Source: Comamonadaceae bacterium (GTDB lineage: Bacteria > Pseudomonadota > Gammaproteobacteria > Burkholderiales > Burkholderiaceae_C). From it: a stretch of DNA of 41,478 nt. Under the pieces are notes generated by a model. The model ran no database searches. It was not told the DNA's origin and saw nothing but the letters and a program-made list of their open reading frames with translations. The stretch lies in assembly GCA_012274225.1 (NCBI GenBank), contig JAAOZX010000117.1, positions 1 to 41,478 of the forward strand, in the 5' to 3' direction. This document shows positions 26,415 to 35,998 of the stretch, in pieces; the first letter of the stretch is position 1; each line of letters begins with the position of its first letter. Position numbers and translations under genes: made by a program.

Positions 26415-26804
26415 TCAATGCGCTGCCGGCTGCGCGGTCGCGGGAGCGAAGAACGCGCCTCGCGTCAGGAATGTGTAGTCGGCTTCGAGCGCTCCTATCC
26501 CCAGCAGCACGAACAGCAGCAGCGGCGGCAGCAGGATGGCGTACACCAGCGCGAGCCGCTCCCACAACATGTGCATGAAGACCGAAACGATCAGGCCTGC
26601 CTTCAACAGCATGAACACGACGATCAGCGACCATCGGAGCAAGCCCTGGAAATGGAAGTAGTCGACCAGGTAGGACGCCGTGCTGAGCACGAACAGCAGG
26701 CCCCAGATCTTGAAGTAGATGCCCAGCGGATGCTGCTGACCCGGTGCGTGTGCGCCGGGGTGATCCCCGACCGGCGCGGCATGTGGGTGTTCGGTGTTTT
26801 CCAT
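26415..26804 (-). CDS. Cytochrome c oxidase subunit IV-like (prokaryotic small subunit)
   Basis: HPLGIYFKIWGLLFVLSTASYLVDYFHFQGLLRWSLIVVFMLLKAGLIVSVFMHMLWERLALVYAILLPP. Confidence 0.85.
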   Translation of the reverse strand: MENTEHPHAAPVGDHPGAHAPGQQHPLGIYFKIWGLLFVLSTASYLVDYFHFQGLLRWSLIVVFMLLKAGLIVSVFMHMLWERLALVYAILLPPLLLFVLLGIGALEADYTFLTRGAFFAPATAQPAAH

Positions 26805-26820
26805 GTGCGGCCTCCTGCTT

Positions 26821-27543
26821 CTACCAAAGATAGAAGAACGCGAAGATGAAGACCCATACCAGGTCCACGAAGTGCCAGTACAGGCCCAGGATCTCGACGA
26901 TCTCGTAGTTGCCCCTGCGGCCGGTGAGGAACCCCGGCCGCTCCTGATCGAGATCGCCCCGCCGCACCTTCAGCGCCACGATCACGAGGAAGATCACGCC
27001 GATGGTCACGTGCGTGCCGTGAAACCCGGTGATCATGAAGAACGCTGATCCGAACTGTGGCGCGCCCCAGGGGTTTCCCCATGGGCGTACGCCTTCGTGG
27101 ATCAGCTTGGTCCACTCGAACGCCTGCATGCCGACGAAGGTGGCGCCCAGGGCCGCCGTCGCCAGCAGCAACGCAAAGGTCGTCTTGCGGTCGCGTCGAT
27201 AGCCGAAGTTCACCGCCAGGGCCATCGTGCCGCTGCTGCTGATCAGGTCGAAGGTCATGATCGCGATCAGCAGCAGCGGAACGCTTCGACCGAACAGCGT
27301 CAGCGCGAACACCTCGCTCGGATTGGGCCAGGGCTCGGTCGTGGAGACGCGCACCGTCATGTACGAGATCAGGAAGCTGCCGAAGATGAAGGTGTCACTG
27401 AGCAGGAAGATCCACATCATCGGCTTGCCCCACGGCACGCCCTTGAAGACGCGTTGATCCGAGGACACGTCCGCGACGATGCTCTGCCAGGCGCCGGCCT
27501 GGGGCAGGATTCCTGCTGAACCGGGTGCTTCGTGTGTCGTCAT
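26821..27543 (-). CDS. Cytochrome c oxidase subunit III (second copy in cluster, CoxP/CoxO-like)
   Basis: KPMMWIFLLSDTFIFGSFLISY...GMQAFEWTKLIHEG...FFMITGFHGTHVTIGVIFL...NYEIVEILGLYWHFVDLVWVFIFAFFYLW. Confidence 0.93.
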   Translation of the reverse strand: MTTHEAPGSAGILPQAGAWQSIVADVSSDQRVFKGVPWGKPMMWIFLLSDTFIFGSFLISYMTVRVSTTEPWPNPSEVFALTLFGRSVPLLLIAIMTFDLISSSGTMALAVNFGYRRDRKTTFALLLATAALGATFVGMQAFEWTKLIHEGVRPWGNPWGAPQFGSAFFMITGFHGTHVTIGVIFLVIVALKVRRGDLDQERPGFLTGRRGNYEIVEILGLYWHFVDLVWVFIFAFFYLW

Positions 27544-27578
27544 GAGGTCGGCTCCTTAATCGCTTGCGGACACGTCGG

Positions 27579-28277
27579 TCACAACGAGGCCGACGAGCAG
27601 ATTGCCAACCCGACCCCTTCCGACACGAGCAGCGCATACAGCGCCACCCAGACGGCGAGCAGGTAATGCCAGTAGGTCGCGCACAGTTCGATGCTCAGCC
27701 TGATCGTGGCCGGATCCGAACCCCGCCACACCTTCGCCGATGCGCGCGCCCATGCCACGAGGCCGCCGAGCACGTGCAGGCCATGCACCGCGGTCAGCAG
27801 GTAGAAAAAGGCAGTGGCAGCACTGTCCGCGACGAAGTACCCGGCGTCGTTGAGTTGCTTCCAGACGAACAACTGTCCGGCCAGGAAGCCGAAGGTCAGC
27901 AGGCCGCTCATCCACAAGCCGCGCCGCACCTGGTCGCGGTCGGCGCGACGGGCGGCATGCACCGTCCATTGCATGGCCAGGCTGGCGCCGACCAGCAGCG
28001 CGGTGTTCAGCATCAGCACCCTGGGCCGGGGCAGCGGGGTCCAGTCCGCCAAGCCCAGGCGCATGGCATAGGCGCTCACGAACAGCACGAACAGCGACGT
28101 GGCGACGGCCAGGAACACCCACAAGGCCATCTTGGCCGCCGACGGGGTGGGCGCGTCGCCGCCCACGTCGGCAACCGCGGCCTGCGCCTGCCACGGCTGC
28201 ACGTTGATCGTCTGCCGGAACAGCCACCACACGATGGTGGCCATCAGGACCGAGAGGAAAACCAGGCCGATGGTCAT
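27579..28277 (-). CDS. Cytochrome c oxidase subunit III-like (divergent first copy)
   Basis: MALWVFLAVATSLFVLFVSAYAMRLGLADW...FLAGQLFVWKQLNDAGYFV...TAFFYLLTAVHGLHVLGGLVAW...LCATYWHYLLAVWVALYALL. Confidence 0.88.
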   Translation of the reverse strand: MTIGLVFLSVLMATIVWWLFRQTINVQPWQAQAAVADVGGDAPTPSAAKMALWVFLAVATSLFVLFVSAYAMRLGLADWTPLPRPRVLMLNTALLVGASLAMQWTVHAARRADRDQVRRGLWMSGLLTFGFLAGQLFVWKQLNDAGYFVADSAATAFFYLLTAVHGLHVLGGLVAWARASAKVWRGSDPATIRLSIELCATYWHYLLAVWVALYALLVSEGVGLAICSSASL

Positions 28278-30076
28278 GGCGCCACCCCCGGCTGCGCGGA
28301 CCTGGCCCAGGCTTCAGCTGCGACCTCCGAAGGTGGGACGTTCTGCGGGATGTAGTCGGTCTTGAGGCCCGGGACGCCGTAGTCGTAGGCCCAGCGATAG
28401 ACGGCCGGCAATTCCTTGCCGAAATTTCCGTGCCGGGGCGGCGTGTGCGCCGTCTGCCACTCGAGCGTGGTGGCGTGCCAGGGGTTGTCGCCCGCTGGCC
28501 TGCCCCTGAAGTAGCTGGTCACCAGGTTGTACAGGAAGACCATCTGTGCGGCGCCAACCACGAAGGCGGCGATCGAGATCCACGCGTTCAGCAAGTGCGC
28601 CGAGTCGGGGATGAAGCTCGTGCCGCCGATCGCGTAGTAACGGCGCGGGATACCCATGAACCCCAGGTAGTGCATCGGATAGAAGATGGCGTAGGTGCCG
28701 ACAAACGTGATCCAGAAGTGGATCTTGCCCAGCGTGTCGTCCAGCATGCGCCCGGTGATCTTGGGGTACCAGTGGTAGATGGCCCCGAACACCGTCAGCA
28801 CCGGCGCGATCCCCATCACCATGTGGAAATGCGCCACGACGAACATCGTGTCCGACAGCGGCATATCCACCACCACGTTGCCCAGGAACAGGCCCGTGAG
28901 GCCGCCGTTGACGAAGGTGAAGATGAACGCGATGGCGAACAGCATCGGAACCGTGAGGTGGATGTTGCCGCGCCACAGCGTCAAGACCCAGTTGTAGACC
29001 TTGATGGCAGTCGGGACCGCGATGATCAGCGTGGTCGTGGCGAAGAAAAAGCCGAAGTTAGGGTCCATGCCGCTCACGAACATGTGGTGCGCCCACACCA
29101 TGAAGCTCAGGCCGCCGATCACCAGGATGGCCCAGACCATCATGCGGTAGCCGAAGATGTTCTTCCTCGCGTGGGTGCTGATCAGGTCGGACACGATGCC
29201 GAAGGCGGGCAGCGCCACGATGTAGACCTCGGGGTGGCCGAAGAACCAGAACAGGTGCTGGAACAGCAGCGGATTGCCGCCGGAGTAGGCCAGTTGCTGT
29301 CCTTTCGAGACGAGCGCGGGCATGAAGAAGCTGGTGCCCAGCGTCAGGTCCAGCGTCATCATGATGGCGCTGACGAACAGGGCGGGAAACGCCAGCAACG
29401 CCAGGATGGTGGCCATGAAGATGCCCCACACGGTGAGCGGCAGGCGCATCATCGTCATGCCGCGCGTGCGGGCCTGCAGCACGGTCACCACGTAGTTCAG
29501 GCCGCCCATGGTGAAGCCGATGACGAAGACCGCCAGCGAGACCAGCAGCAGGATGATGCCCCGGTGCGCTCCCGGCGTGCCGTCCAGGATGGCCTGCGGC
29601 GGGTACAGGGTCCAGCCGGCGCCGCTCGGCCCTCCGGGCACGAAGAAACTCGCGACGAGCAGCAGCACCGCCAGCAGGTACAGCCAGTAGCTGACCATGT
29701 TCACGTAGGGGAACACCATGTCGCGGGCCCCGACCATCAGCGGGATCAGGTAGTTGCCGAACCCGCCCAGGAACAGCGCCGTGAGCAGGTAGATGACCAT
29801 GATCATGCCGTGCATGCTGACCAGCTGGAGGTAGGTATACGGGGTGATGAAGCCGACGCGGCCCGGAAAGCCGAGCTGCAGGCGCATCAGCCACGAGAAC
29901 ACCAGCGCGACCAGTCCGATCGCGATCGCGGTGACCGCGTACTGGATCGCGATCACCTTCGCATCCTGGCTCCAGATGTACTTGCCGATGAACGTCTTCG
30001 GGTGGTAGAGCTCGGGCTCGCCAACCTCCGCAGGCGGTGCGAATTCCGATTCATCGTGCGCAACGTAAGTAGTCAT
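28274..30076 (-). CDS. ctaD: Cytochrome c oxidase subunit I
   Basis: FWFFGHPEVYIVALPAFGIVSDLIS, WAHHMFVSGMDP, VVAHFHMVMGIAPVLTVFGAIYHW: heme a3-CuB ligand motifs; ATG at 30076. Confidence 0.97.
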   Translation of the reverse strand: MTTYVAHDESEFAPPAEVGEPELYHPKTFIGKYIWSQDAKVIAIQYAVTAIAIGLVALVFSWLMRLQLGFPGRVGFITPYTYLQLVSMHGMIMVIYLLTALFLGGFGNYLIPLMVGARDMVFPYVNMVSYWLYLLAVLLLVASFFVPGGPSGAGWTLYPPQAILDGTPGAHRGIILLLVSLAVFVIGFTMGGLNYVVTVLQARTRGMTMMRLPLTVWGIFMATILALLAFPALFVSAIMMTLDLTLGTSFFMPALVSKGQQLAYSGGNPLLFQHLFWFFGHPEVYIVALPAFGIVSDLISTHARKNIFGYRMMVWAILVIGGLSFMVWAHHMFVSGMDPNFGFFFATTTLIIAVPTAIKVYNWVLTLWRGNIHLTVPMLFAIAFIFTFVNGGLTGLFLGNVVVDMPLSDTMFVVAHFHMVMGIAPVLTVFGAIYHWYPKITGRMLDDTLGKIHFWITFVGTYAIFYPMHYLGFMGIPRRYYAIGGTSFIPDSAHLLNAWISIAAFVVGAAQMVFLYNLVTSYFRGRPAGDNPWHATTLEWQTAHTPPRHGNFGKELPAVYRWAYDYGVPGLKTDYIPQNVPPSEVAAEAWARSAQPGVAP

Positions 30077-30092
30077 CGCCCCTCCACGCGGA

Positions 30093-31445
30093 TCAACGCG
30101 AGTTGATGTAGGCCAGGATGTTGCCGATCTCAGCATCGTCGGCCAACATCCCGGCGATCAGCGCCATCTGGCCGCCGTAAATGTCCTGCGGATGGGCGCC
30201 ACGGACGCCCTCCTTGAAATTCTTCAACTGCCTGGCCATGTACCAGTCGCTCATGCCCTGGAGCCTGGGCGCGTTGGTCGCCGCGATCCCCCGCCCGTTG
30301 GCGCCGTGGCAGGCGGCGCAGGTCGCGTAGCGCTCCCGGCCCTTGTCTACATCGCCCTTGATCGTTGTCGCCACCGGCGCGTCCGGCAGGCTCGCGATGT
30401 AGGCCGCGACATTGGCGACGGCGGTGTCGTCCGCAAGCGTGGCAGCCATCGGCGCCATCATCTTGCCGAACGTGTCCCTCTCGTGCGTGCCGCGGGCTCC
30501 CTCCTTGAAGTGCTTCAGCTGACGCTCCACGTACCAGGCGCCCTGTCCGTTCAGCCTCGGCGCATTCAGCGCGACATTGCCCTCGGCGTTGGCGCCATGG
30601 CAAGCAGCACACACCGCATACGAGGCCTGGCCCGCCAAGGCGTTGCCGGGAGGCCGGTCGAGCACCTGCGCAAAGGTCGACTGGCGGTCCAGCCAGGCCT
30701 GGTAAGCAGCGGGCTCGTCCACCACCAGCCTGCCACGCATTGCGAAGTGCCCGATGCCGCAAAGTTCCTCGCACAGCAGGTCGAACGATCCCGTCCGCGT
30801 GGGCGTGAACCAGATGTACGTGACCAGGCCGGGGACCATGTCCATCTTGACGCGCAGCTGCGCCACCGCGAAGTCGTGCAGCACGTCCTTGGAGCGAAGC
30901 AGCAGCTTGACCGGCTGGCCCAGGGGCACATGCAGCTCGGGACTGGCCAACAGCACGTCGTCCCGCCCGTTGGGATCGGCCGGATTCATGCCGAAGGGGT
31001 TGCTGTCGCTCACGAAGCGGGAGTGCACGGTCCCCAGCTTGCCGTCCTTGCCGGGCAGGCGATAACTCCAGTGCCACTGCTGGGCCACGACTTCCACGAT
31101 CAGGGCGTCCGGCGGCGCATGGACGACGTCCGCCCAGACCAGGAGGCCCGGGGCCAGCATGGCGGCCACACCGACACCGGTGAGGACCAGGAGCCACCCC
31201 TCGAGCTTCTTGTTCTCCGGCTGGTACGCTGCGCGTCCGTCCTTGCGATAGCGGTAGCGGATCACCGCCAATGCCATGAACAGGTTGACCGCCACGAACA
31301 CGATCCCCGTCACCCAGAAGGTGATGGCGATCGTGCTGTCGATCCTGTGCCAGTTGGAGGCAATCGGCGTGAAGTACCAGGGACTCAGGAAATGGAACAG
31401 GACCGAGCCGAGGGCCAGCAGGATCAGCGCGATTGCGATCGCCAT
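30093..31445 (-). CDS. Cytochrome c oxidase subunit II fused to two C-terminal cytochrome c domains
   Basis: VVAQQWHWSYRLPG; CuA motif CEELCGIGHFAM; two heme motifs, both CAACHGAN, in tandem similar domains. Confidence 0.96.
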   Translation of the reverse strand: MAIAIALILLALGSVLFHFLSPWYFTPIASNWHRIDSTIAITFWVTGIVFVAVNLFMALAVIRYRYRKDGRAAYQPENKKLEGWLLVLTGVGVAAMLAPGLLVWADVVHAPPDALIVEVVAQQWHWSYRLPGKDGKLGTVHSRFVSDSNPFGMNPADPNGRDDVLLASPELHVPLGQPVKLLLRSKDVLHDFAVAQLRVKMDMVPGLVTYIWFTPTRTGSFDLLCEELCGIGHFAMRGRLVVDEPAAYQAWLDRQSTFAQVLDRPPGNALAGQASYAVCAACHGANAEGNVALNAPRLNGQGAWYVERQLKHFKEGARGTHERDTFGKMMAPMAATLADDTAVANVAAYIASLPDAPVATTIKGDVDKGRERYATCAACHGANGRGIAATNAPRLQGMSDWYMARQLKNFKEGVRGAHPQDIYGGQMALIAGMLADDAEIGNILAYINSR

Positions 31446-31447
31446 GG

Positions 31448-31957
31448 CTAGGGCTCCGTGGCGGTTCTCTTGAGCCTGCAGTACAGCAAGGCCGCCACGA
31501 TGCCGAAGACCCCATGCGCGGCCACCGTTTCCGTGCCGCGCAGCGCCGCCAACCAGGGGAAGAAACCGACCAGGAACTCGAAGTTGATCAGGTAGAGCGC
31601 GACGCCCACGGTCGCACCCGCCACCAGCGCCACGCCCGGCGTCGAATCAAGCCTGAGCTGCACCAGCACCGCGGCCACGCCCAAGCCGAAGACGATGCCC
31701 AGAACGTAGTGGGTGACCAATGAGATGGCGACCACGCCGAGGTTGAACCCGTAGCCGGACGTCTGCAGGCTGCTGGTGCCCGTGAAGATCGGCGCGATCA
31801 TGTACGAAGTCCGCCATGGGCCGTCAGGGCTGAAGACGGCGGACCAGACAAGGTCCAGCACCATCAGCACGGCGCCGGCCGCGAAACCGGACACCGCCGC
31901 CGCGGTCCAGTCCATCGCGCGCCACTTCCAACCACGCGAACCCAGCAGAGTGTCCAT
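31448..31957 (-). CDS. Hypothetical integral membrane protein, first gene of the cox cluster
   Basis: ATG at 31957 with GGGAGGTCATC RBS; MDTLLGSRGWKWRAMDWTAAAVSGFAAGAVLMVLDLVWSAVFSPDG...; 4-5 hydrophobic segments; 3 bp before the subunit II start. Confidence 0.8.
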   Translation of the reverse strand: MDTLLGSRGWKWRAMDWTAAAVSGFAAGAVLMVLDLVWSAVFSPDGPWRTSYMIAPIFTGTSSLQTSGYGFNLGVVAISLVTHYVLGIVFGLGVAAVLVQLRLDSTPGVALVAGATVGVALYLINFEFLVGFFPWLAALRGTETVAAHGVFGIVAALLYCRLKRTATEP

Positions 31958-32414: not shown

Positions 32415-32822
32415 CTAGTGGATCCGCAACGACTCTGCGGGTGGGAGTGACCGCTCTTGTCTGCGAACGGAGTTGTCCTGGTGCTCCAGCAACTGCCAAT
32501 GTGCCGTGAGGGCCGACAGAGCCAGCCGAAAATGAAGTGACAAGGCCGGATGCGCAGCGAGACCTGCCAGGTTGAGTTCTACCTTTTGAGCCATAAGCCG
32601 GCGCTGAACGTTACAGGCAGCTTCCGCGTGCGCGGTCATCAGAGCCAGGGTTCCCGCCAGAATGGCCTCGACGCAGGGGAGGCGCTCTTCCTCGTCTCGC
32701 TCGGCAAGAGATTCCACGGGACTCTCCTCGGGGAAATAAGGCGCCAACCCCGCAGCTATCTCGCAATAGTGCGGGGGTTTCCAGTCGCCGGCGCAAACGC
32801 GCGGCCAGCGCTCGAGGCGCAA
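32415..32822 (-). CDS. Small hypothetical protein downstream of decaheme cytochrome
   Basis: 135-aa ORF starting 33 bp after the decaheme stop on the same strand; helical composition; no recognised family. Confidence 0.45.
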   Translation of the reverse strand: MRLERWPRVCAGDWKPPHYCEIAAGLAPYFPEESPVESLAERDEEERLPCVEAILAGTLALMTAHAEAACNVQRRLMAQKVELNLAGLAAHPALSLHFRLALSALTAHWQLLEHQDNSVRRQERSLPPAESLRIH

Positions 32823-32854: not shown

Positions 32855-35581
32855 CTACTTCCTGTGAACGACTGCAGGATCCTCGCTCTTGCCAGGACCG
32901 TGGCAGGTCACGCAGGATTCGGTCGCCACTGCACCGACGGTGTTGCGGTTGGCCTGCACTTGCCCACCTTGCAACTTGATGTGCGACTTGGCCGCGCTCG
33001 AGTCGTGGCAGCTCACGCAGGCCCCGGCAAACGGCGTGGTCACGTGGTCGGTGCCATTGGCCGCGGTCGTCGAGAGGGCGTTCTTGGCCAGTACCGTCGT
33101 CGCCGCGCCACCCGCGATGCCCGCGTCGTACGCAGCATCAATCGTCTCGTACGTTGACGGCAACGCACTGAGCGGCACCGAGCTGTACGTGCCGGAGATG
33201 TGGCAGGTTTCGCAGTTGTTCAACTGACCCGGGAAGTCCATCCGCGCGAAGTCCAGCAGCGTGACTTCGCCGCGCGAGGTCGAGTCTCTCGCATCGCGGA
33301 ACGGATTGACGCGGTCTCTTCCGGCATGGATGCCGTGGATCATGTCCTTGAAGTTGTTCGTCGTGACCGGCAGTGCCAGGGCGGCATTGACCTTGGTCTT
33401 GTCGAACTTCCAGAAGTCCACGATCTTCTGCAGCTCCGCAGTGAAGGTCCAGGTGTTCATCGTGGAGTCGGGAATCTGCCGGCCGCTGGTCGCCAGGCCT
33501 GGCACGTGGCACGTGACGCAAACCTGGGTCTGGTAGACCCGGTTCCCGCCGTGGCCTTCGAACCACTCGTGGCAGCTGGCGCACTTCTCGGGGTCGACGA
33601 CCTTGCGGCGCACTGCGTCGCCGGTGACCTCCTTGACGACCGAGATCGCGTGGCGCGCCACCGCGGGGCTCACTTGTGTGAAGTAGCCCTGGAGGGCCAC
33701 CGCACGCATCGTCGAACCGGCCGGGAACTTCTTGGTGCCGGTGCCCAGCAACGTCGCCGTGTAGTAGCCGCTCGCATCGGGCGCGGACAAGGAGCCGTCC
33801 GCTGTCTTGGTCGTGTCGAGCAGGTTGGCGATGGAGACACTGGTGGGCTGTGCCTGCTTGTTGCCCGAGTTGGTGTAGTCGGCGGGCGCCTTGATGCCGT
33901 CGGTCGCCGTTGCGTCCGTCGCGTAGGCGAGCAGGAAACCGGGGCTTCCGGTGAACCCGTCGAGCGGATTGGCCATGGCTGCGGCAGGGGCCTTGAACGT
34001 CGCCGGAGCGCCGTCGACCAGCACCCTGAACACCACGGTGGTCTTGTTCGTCGCCGCGTCAACGGCTGCGGACTTGATCTCGTAGCTGATGTTCTTCAGC
34101 CCGGCCTTCACGGTGGGATTGTGCTTGGTCACGTTGTCGGTCTGGTGGTATTCCACCAGCAGTGCCGGCGTATGGCAGATGGCGCAGTTGGCGTCGTCGA
34201 GTTGTTTGCCGGCGAGGTGCCCGGACGTCTTGCCCAGACCTTCGGCCTTGTCGGCCAGGGTCGTCCCGGCACCCGTCGTCCAGTTGATTCCGTCGTGGCA
34301 TGCACCGCAGGCAAGGCGGCTCGGCTTGGCCTTCCAGTTGTCAGCCTGTGCGGCCTTGGTGTTGTCGTGGCACTTGGTGCACATCTTCTGGCCGCCGCCG
34401 AGCATCGAGAAGCCCTTGTTGTTGAACGCGACGTTGGCGAAGTTGTAGTTTTGCTTGACCAGCTCCTTGCCCATGTGAATCTTGTGAACCAGGGTCGTGA
34501 AGTTGCCGGAGACCTCGCCGTCCGCGATGTTCGTGGCCGGCGAATAGCGGTAACTCGTGATCCCGGTCACGGGGTCCACGGTCGCCGTCTCCGTCAAGGC
34601 CGGGAACTTGCCTGCCGTGGACGCGACGTTGGTATTGCCGTATTTCAGCTGGTCGGTGTGGCAGACCACGCAATACCGCGTGTCCACCCGGCTGCCGTGC
34701 AATTTCAGACTGCCGTGGCATTCATTGCAGTTGGAAATGGCGACGACTTCGCGCTGATCCGTGTCGGTGGCAGCCGCAACTTTCGCGGTGGCGGGATACC
34801 AGTCGAACACGATGTTCGCCGGGGCGCCCATCGGCACGGCCGTGACACCGGAGTTCGCACCATTGGCGGTGTTCGTGCCGGTGCCACGTGCGTTCCCGCC
34901 TACCTGAATCGCGAGCCGGTGCAGCTTCGCCGGATCGTAGGTGAGGTCGCCCAGGTCTGCCGCCACATTCGGGGCCACGAGGCTTGCCGATGCGACCATG
35001 TCCTTGACCTTGGTGATGTCGCGGTAGAAAGTGTATTTGTAGGTGCCGTCGCCGTTGTCGACCAGCGTCCCGATGTTGTCCGTGGTGGGCGACCGTGGCG
35101 TTTCGCCCGCCGTGGTGGTCGGCGAGGCCGTCACCATGTAACTCACCCATTTGCTGGGGCTTCCGGGCACCAGCTTCGCCATTGCGAACGCCATATTGCT
35201 CAGGCCCGGCAGCTTCGCGGTCGCGTTCTGGCTGGTAAATCCGAGACCCTTGATGCCCCTGTTGCTGGCGTCTGTCACCTGGAAGGTCACCACCGGCGGG
35301 CTCGCGATCGAAACGCTGGTCACGGCGCCCGTGGGCGCAAGTGCGGCGAACTCGGCCGGCGTCAGTGCGGCTGCGTCGATCGGCGTGCCGCCCGGCGGCG
35401 GAACAGTCACCTTGACCGAGACGCCCGTCGACGGCGTCCCACCGCCCGAGGCGGGCGGTGGTGTGACCGCGGTATCACCGGAATCGCCGCCGCCGCCGCA
35501 ACCAGCCAGGGCGATTGCGAGCACGCTCGCCGCTCCGAAGCCGATCCAGCGGTTCCTTCTCAATAGGTCGAATAGCACCAC
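32855..35581 (-). CDS. OmcA/MtrC-like decaheme c-type cytochrome lipoprotein
   Basis: Lipobox ASVLAIALAGCGGGG; ten CXXCH: CNECH, CVVCH, CTKCH, CGACH, CAICH, CASCH, CVTCH, CETCH, CVSCH, CVTCH; Thr/Gly/Ala-rich beta-type linkers. Confidence 0.95.
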   Translation of the reverse strand: MVLFDLLRRNRWIGFGAASVLAIALAGCGGGGDSGDTAVTPPPASGGGTPSTGVSVKVTVPPPGGTPIDAAALTPAEFAALAPTGAVTSVSIASPPVVTFQVTDASNRGIKGLGFTSQNATAKLPGLSNMAFAMAKLVPGSPSKWVSYMVTASPTTTAGETPRSPTTDNIGTLVDNGDGTYKYTFYRDITKVKDMVASASLVAPNVAADLGDLTYDPAKLHRLAIQVGGNARGTGTNTANGANSGVTAVPMGAPANIVFDWYPATAKVAAATDTDQREVVAISNCNECHGSLKLHGSRVDTRYCVVCHTDQLKYGNTNVASTAGKFPALTETATVDPVTGITSYRYSPATNIADGEVSGNFTTLVHKIHMGKELVKQNYNFANVAFNNKGFSMLGGGQKMCTKCHDNTKAAQADNWKAKPSRLACGACHDGINWTTGAGTTLADKAEGLGKTSGHLAGKQLDDANCAICHTPALLVEYHQTDNVTKHNPTVKAGLKNISYEIKSAAVDAATNKTTVVFRVLVDGAPATFKAPAAAMANPLDGFTGSPGFLLAYATDATATDGIKAPADYTNSGNKQAQPTSVSIANLLDTTKTADGSLSAPDASGYYTATLLGTGTKKFPAGSTMRAVALQGYFTQVSPAVARHAISVVKEVTGDAVRRKVVDPEKCASCHEWFEGHGGNRVYQTQVCVTCHVPGLATSGRQIPDSTMNTWTFTAELQKIVDFWKFDKTKVNAALALPVTTNNFKDMIHGIHAGRDRVNPFRDARDSTSRGEVTLLDFARMDFPGQLNNCETCHISGTYSSVPLSALPSTYETIDAAYDAGIAGGAATTVLAKNALSTTAANGTDHVTTPFAGACVSCHDSSAAKSHIKLQGGQVQANRNTVGAVATESCVTCHGPGKSEDPAVVHRK

Positions 35582-35998
35582 GTGGAGCCCCCGTGAAAGA
35601 AAACGTGAGAGAGATTGGGCGCCGTCCCAGCGGTGGCGCCCTCATAGTGGAAAGTGCCTGACCACCACCTGACCCGTTGCCGGAAAAACGGGCGAAAACG
35701 GTAAGTGTTTTCGAGTATTGACCATTTCCACCACGTGGATTCTGTTCCTGAAGCTCGACCGCAGTCCATGCCAATCGGCGATCTCATATTGACTTCGCGC
35801 AAGGAATTCCCGCGAAGTGGAAGCAATCGCGACCTGGGCGGTCTGCAGTGCGGAATCTGCCGGCGTCGGAACCGACAGCTCGCAGTCTGATGGCAACAAG
35901 GGGCACCTCGCACTGGCAGGCCGTCTTCTTCGGCCATCCAAGATGGTTGCCACCGTGCCGCGTTCTCATTCGATCCGCTGCGCGGCGAGAATGCCGGC

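Follow-up and report, generated by a model that had tools for sequence, protein, structure and literature searches.

The window analysed here, a 41,478-nucleotide stretch of one contig (C113) of a draft Ramlibacter genome, encodes a 908-residue decaheme lipoprotein that is near certain to be a member of the OmcA/MtrC family. The same genome carries a complete mtrCAB cluster on another contig, and the protein is probably an accessory OmcA-like surface cytochrome that works with MtrCAB. Most likely, it passes electrons between the Ramlibacter cell and minerals or other partners outside it.

Gene, heme motifs and predicted structure

The gene occupies positions 32855..35581 on the minus strand, from a GTG start codon at 35581 to a stop codon at 32855–32857 (included in the coordinates), and its frame is intact. 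The initial annotation gave the same coordinates with no strand; the strand is minus. Translation and motif counting confirm its description of a 908-residue product with exactly ten CXXCH motifs and an LAGC lipobox. The motifs start at residues 285, 304, 401, 425, and 466, and at residues 667, 688, 790, 855, and 890, giving a 5+5 layout. In 20,000 shuffled versions of the protein, the mean number of CXXCH motifs is 0.013 and the maximum is two. The signal peptide and lipobox, with the predicted lipidated residue Cys28, are encoded at 35498..35581 (-), and Cys28 is invariant among 38 aligned homologues. The protein contains 21 cysteines, namely the 20 heme cysteines and Cys28. A plus-strand ORF of 788 codons that overlaps the gene is interpreted as a shadow ORF that reflects high GC content.

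The protein is composed of four domains, all encoded on the minus strand. Domain I (approximately residues 52–275; 34757..35428) is beta-rich, with approximate limits taken from the secondary structure of an AlphaFold2 model. Domain II (34142..34738), a pentaheme domain, holds the first five motifs, and its limits, from the motifs and the model, are approximate as well. Domain III (33602..34141; limits approximate) is beta-rich and has no cysteine. Domain IV (32858..33601) holds the last five motifs and corresponds to a match to PF22113 at residues 659–906.

The family assignment made in the initial annotation is borne out by profiles and by the predicted fold. In the HMMER search that it had proposed, the protein matches TIGR03507 (NCBIfam OmcA/MtrC) at 436.6 bits against a cut-off of 209.3, with residues 92–906 covering positions 4–672 of the 672-position model. 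PF22113 (Pfam MtrC/MtrF domain II/IV) scores 164.7 bits for the whole protein, and PF22112 (OmcA-like N-terminal domain) scores 16.4 bits, below its cut-off of 27. By sequence alone, MtrF is the best phmmer match and the sole convincing relative of solved structure. The AlphaFold2 model, heme-free and built from an alignment of 38 homologues, has a mean pLDDT of 86.9 and a pTM of 0.84, and it shows the four-domain fold of two beta and two pentaheme domains, in uncertain orientation. A Foldseek comparison of the model with the PDB, also suggested at the outset, gives 12 matches at E ≤ 1e-3, every one of them a structure of OmcA or MtrC (best E 1.9e-25). The TM-scores by target length for full-length OmcA and MtrC structures are moderate (0.58–0.66) and the rmsd is ~10 Å, which leaves the arrangement of the domains uncertain; such values might be expected for a model that lacks hemes and has movable domains. 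The 26 closest sequences share twelve conserved histidines outside the motifs, a number that, judging from the alignment, would be enough to provide ten distal heme ligands.

In a FastTree phylogeny of the family, which has local support values only, the protein falls outside the core MtrC clade and groups with accessory proteins encoded next to mtrCAB. Its nearest named relatives are from Ramlibacter. The three closest proteins, from the window, Ramlibacter sp. BP03 (82% identical), and R. lithotrophicus RBP-1 (77% identical), form one Ramlibacter clade.

Absence of the domain III disulfide

A CX8-15C disulfide in domain III is conserved in all clades of Shewanella outer-membrane decaheme cytochromes, MtrC, OmcA, UndA, and MtrF (PMC4486940), and, when oxygen is present, the disulfide of MtrC limits the reduction of flavins (PMC9973256). 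The mature 908-residue protein has no cysteine other than the heme and lipobox cysteines, so an intramolecular disulfide is impossible. Domain III of the core MtrC encoded in the same genome contains such a pair, as CX7C. Among the family members collected, at least two domain III cysteines are present in 19 of the 21 core MtrC sequences, and the pair is absent from 74 of the 79 non-core sequences that are closer to the 908-residue protein; a Fisher test on these rows ignores shared ancestry. On the aligned sequences, the cysteine pair thus separates core MtrC from the accessory proteins almost cleanly. The comparison with Shewanella rests on the cited papers, Shewanella sequences being outside the alignment.

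Mtr partners elsewhere in the genome

The draft genome (4.17 Mb, 518 contigs, 82% complete) contains the conduit that the window lacks. The initial annotation reported neither MtrA nor MtrB in the window, and genome-wide profile searches agree, with above-cut-off matches on contig C425 only: one MtrB/PioB-family porin (431.8 bits) and one DmsE/MtrA-type decaheme protein (295.8 bits). A core MtrC is encoded on the same contig (C425:10088-12742; 586.8 bits). The mtrC, mtrA, and mtrB genes are mutually adjacent, and a monoheme cytochrome c gene lies downstream. A missing conduit is therefore ruled out. The term "orphan" used in the initial annotation holds for the location of the gene but not for its partners; of the two alternatives then offered, that the partners lie elsewhere is what the whole-genome search found, and a different conduit is superfluous for this genome, though relatives in Geothrix, described below, have no MtrB-family match.

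At least four OmcA/MtrC-family genes are present in the genome. Two of them are cut by contig ends, on C500 (locus L011, 4855-6432) and on C453 (locus L012, 2-1099). Comparison with the decaheme protein of another genome (G005) rules out that these are halves of one gene: the C500 product is 88% identical to its N-terminal 525 residues, and its C-terminal part is 26% identical to the C453 product. The C453 fragment retains two cysteines in the domain III region.

Contig C303 encodes a tetraheme protein of the NapC/NirT family. Of the type II secretion system, which would export the decaheme protein, the secretin is seen only in part, as a GspD-like match that scores 349.7 bits against a cut-off of 351.35 and starts at a contig edge. 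Two paralogous gene pairs, on C412 (locus L013, 9222-11260) and C311 (locus L014, 1644-3670), each encode a nine-heme protein (~454 residues) and a 221-residue membrane protein, and lie beside response-regulator-like genes; similar pairs are found near mtrCAB in Rhodoferax-type loci (L021-L023). A RuBisCO large subunit is encoded at C181:3120-4040, which suggests a capacity for autotrophy.

Co-occurrence with MtrB and gene neighbourhood

The OmcA/MtrC family scores above cut-off in 10 of 59 Ramlibacter genomes. MtrB is present in all ten of these and in 6 of the remaining 49 (Fisher p = 1.3e-7, an optimistic value given shared ancestry), indicating that the family and the conduit travel together in Ramlibacter. 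MtrB is also present in 7/7 betaproteobacterial genomes tested. Among 19 betaproteobacterial orthologue loci, the window included, the fetched stretch contains MtrA in 13 and also MtrB in 11. The three Ramlibacter loci, however, share no gene neighbours and have neither MtrA nor MtrB in their flanks (for BP03, one flank only, up to the contig end). In R. lithotrophicus, the orthologue and mtrB are on different contigs (C3 and C5, respectively) and are more than 200 kb apart. The position of the gene outside the mtr cluster here, in BP03, and in R. lithotrophicus counts against the accessory reading, as the gene may not be co-regulated with mtrCAB. Most simply, we infer, an accessory gene that normally resides in the mtr cluster has been displaced.

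Upstream of the gene, some 165 bp (35582..35748 (-) in the window) resemble the DNA that precedes the other two Ramlibacter orthologues, so the decaheme gene seems to come with a leader of its own. Within it, a CGAAAAC/GTTTTCG hairpin at 35693-35713 was considered as a shared regulatory motif and rejected, as it is not kept at the two orthologous loci (L016/L017) and is absent from the other fetched loci. A sigma-70 promoter scan found no promoter and was uninformative.

Downstream, 138 bp from the decaheme gene, is a small gene at 32415-32717 (-) with a GTG start and a good Shine-Dalgarno sequence; its 100-residue product has no family match. Another Ramlibacter genome has a copy (locus L099, 5412-5714; identity ~82% for the protein and ~87% for the DNA) that follows another orphan decaheme gene, even though the decaheme proteins at the two loci share only ~33% identity. 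Two further genomes have weaker homologues, which are away from cytochromes. Farther downstream is a terminal oxidase cassette (26415-31957 (-)) that encodes a caa3-like oxidase, including a CoxB with two extra cytochrome c domains, as well as further oxidase-subunit-like membrane proteins and a 169-residue membrane protein.

Relatives in other phyla

Relatives in Geothrix isolates belong to the same clade and are 51–54% identical to the 908-residue protein. No match to the MtrB family (TIGR03509) occurs in two Geothrix isolate genomes or in one Holophagaceae bin; another Holophagaceae bin has a match that barely exceeds the cut-off. Most of the more distant holders tested (Desulfobacterota, Myxococcota, Planctomycetota) have no MtrB match, and one gammaproteobacterium has one; a divergent porin could lie below the reach of the profile. 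The pattern in Geothrix and in most distant holders indicates that members of the clade need not be partnered with MtrCAB, and the clade may serve other conduits too.

At two Geothrix loci (L026, 556-3109; L027, 215-2301), a gene for a protein of 464–537 residues and then genes for pentaheme cytochromes precede three OmcA/MtrC-family genes; neither MtrA nor MtrB is encoded there. This protein and the pentaheme cytochromes are a candidate alternative conduit.

Discussion

We infer the surface location of the 908-residue protein, its contact with MtrC, its substrate, and any direction of electron flow. After export and lipidation at Cys28, the protein would be held at the outer membrane by a flexible linker rich in glycine, proline, and threonine. 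The ten hemes, in two pentaheme domains with a beta domain between them, could act as a wire linking the core MtrC–MtrA–MtrB complex with extracellular electron donors or acceptors, as in Shewanella OmcA; candidates are metal oxides, Fe(II), humics, and electrodes. Because RuBisCO is encoded in the genome, electron uptake is plausible. Without a domain III disulfide, the oxygen-responsive flavin gate of the Shewanella cytochromes would not be usable, and flavin/electron exchange by the protein should not be switched by the redox state of a disulfide. A literature search found no experiments on the protein or its orthologues; expression of mtrCAB has been reported for R. lithotrophicus growing on Mn(II) in coculture (PMC8805035).

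A role that bypasses MtrCAB is rather unlikely. The protein would then be a surface cytochrome served by another conduit, such as a Geobacter-type porin-cytochrome complex or a Cyc2-like fusion, or a stand-alone relay between cells or to filaments. The Geothrix isolates, with members of the same clade, no TIGR03509 porin, and the pentaheme and 464–539-residue proteins encoded upstream, are in line with such a role, as is the lack of linkage to mtrCAB in Ramlibacter. However, mtrCAB is complete in this genome, none of the 59 Ramlibacter genomes searched has the family without MtrB, and the betaproteobacterial orthologues mostly lie beside mtrA. It is very improbable that the protein instead serves the adjacent oxidase and links extracellular electrons directly to reduction of O2. 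The decaheme gene is directly upstream of the caa3-like oxidase on the same strand, but a gap of about 900 bp separates them, and none of 8 other genomes examined has a decaheme gene adjoining the cassette. In addition, the cassette is found in 24 of the 59 Ramlibacter genomes, in varying neighbourhoods and mostly where no decaheme protein is encoded, and in R. lithotrophicus the decaheme gene and the cassette are on different contigs. An operon of the decaheme gene with the downstream oxidase was rejected, since the pairing is not conserved. That the gene is a redundant or decaying paralogue with no current role is highly unlikely. The number of OmcA/MtrC paralogues in the genome and the variable location of the gene would be compatible with decay, but the frame is intact, all heme ligands are kept, and the orthologues in two other species are 77–84% identical, with a similar leader upstream. 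An accessory cytochrome working with MtrCAB thus remains the preferred reading.

These findings add a further Ramlibacter, related to R. lithotrophicus, that encodes a complete extracellular electron transfer system of the Mtr type, with at least four genes for surface cytochromes and with RuBisCO. The split between core and accessory proteins in the cysteine pair makes the proposed oxygen-switch role of the disulfide testable in natural variants. Worth following up are the absence of the disulfide across the whole accessory clade and the possible use of the clade with different conduits. A broader proposal, which we advance tentatively as a possibility, is that this clade is widespread and horizontally shared, lost the disulfide or never had it, and provides an interchangeable, ungated surface terminal. 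It would be paired with a gated core MtrC in one cell, plugged into conduits that differ by phylum (MtrCAB in Betaproteobacteria, a non-MtrB conduit in Geothrix), and might act under oxic or oxidative conditions, where gating of the Shewanella type would shut the path.

Comparison with known systems

The orthologues of BP03 and R. lithotrophicus RBP-1 resemble the 908-residue protein in length, in their ten hemes and lipobox, and in the absence of extra cysteines from the mature protein; they are likewise encoded outside the mtr cluster, with MtrB elsewhere in the genome, but the gene neighbours differ at each locus. The accessory MtrC-family proteins of Rhodoferax and other Comamonadaceae (PMC8805035) belong to the same clade, are ~45–65% identical, and have ten hemes, but their genes adjoin mtrCAB. 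Extra MtrC copies adjoin mtrCAB in 44% of clusters in that survey, which counted only adjoining copies, so displaced ones are outside its scope. In Desulfuromonas acetexigens, mtrC is encoded away from mtrAB (PMC12133095). This organism is of another phylum and its mtrC itself is reported to be displaced, whereas here the core mtrC stays with mtrAB; together with the common extra copies, this precedent for displaced members means that a gene in such an orphan location is nothing new in kind.

The core MtrC of the same genome is a member of the same family and ~27–28% identical, and differs in adjoining mtrA and mtrB and in carrying the CX7C pair; the 908-residue protein is neither encoded with mtrA and mtrB nor grouped with core MtrCs. 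Shewanella MtrC and MtrF (PDB 4LM8, 6QYC, 3PMQ) share its fold and heme layout, but are core conduit subunits, are encoded with mtrAB, and have the domain III switch (PMC4486940, PMC9973256). Shewanella OmcA (PDB 4LMH), the top Foldseek match with 16% identity in the structural alignment, is like the 908-residue protein a lipoprotein with the four-domain fold and 5+5 hemes, separate from the core conduit. The 908-residue protein differs from OmcA in having no domain III disulfide and in matching the OmcA-like N-terminal profile below its cut-off.
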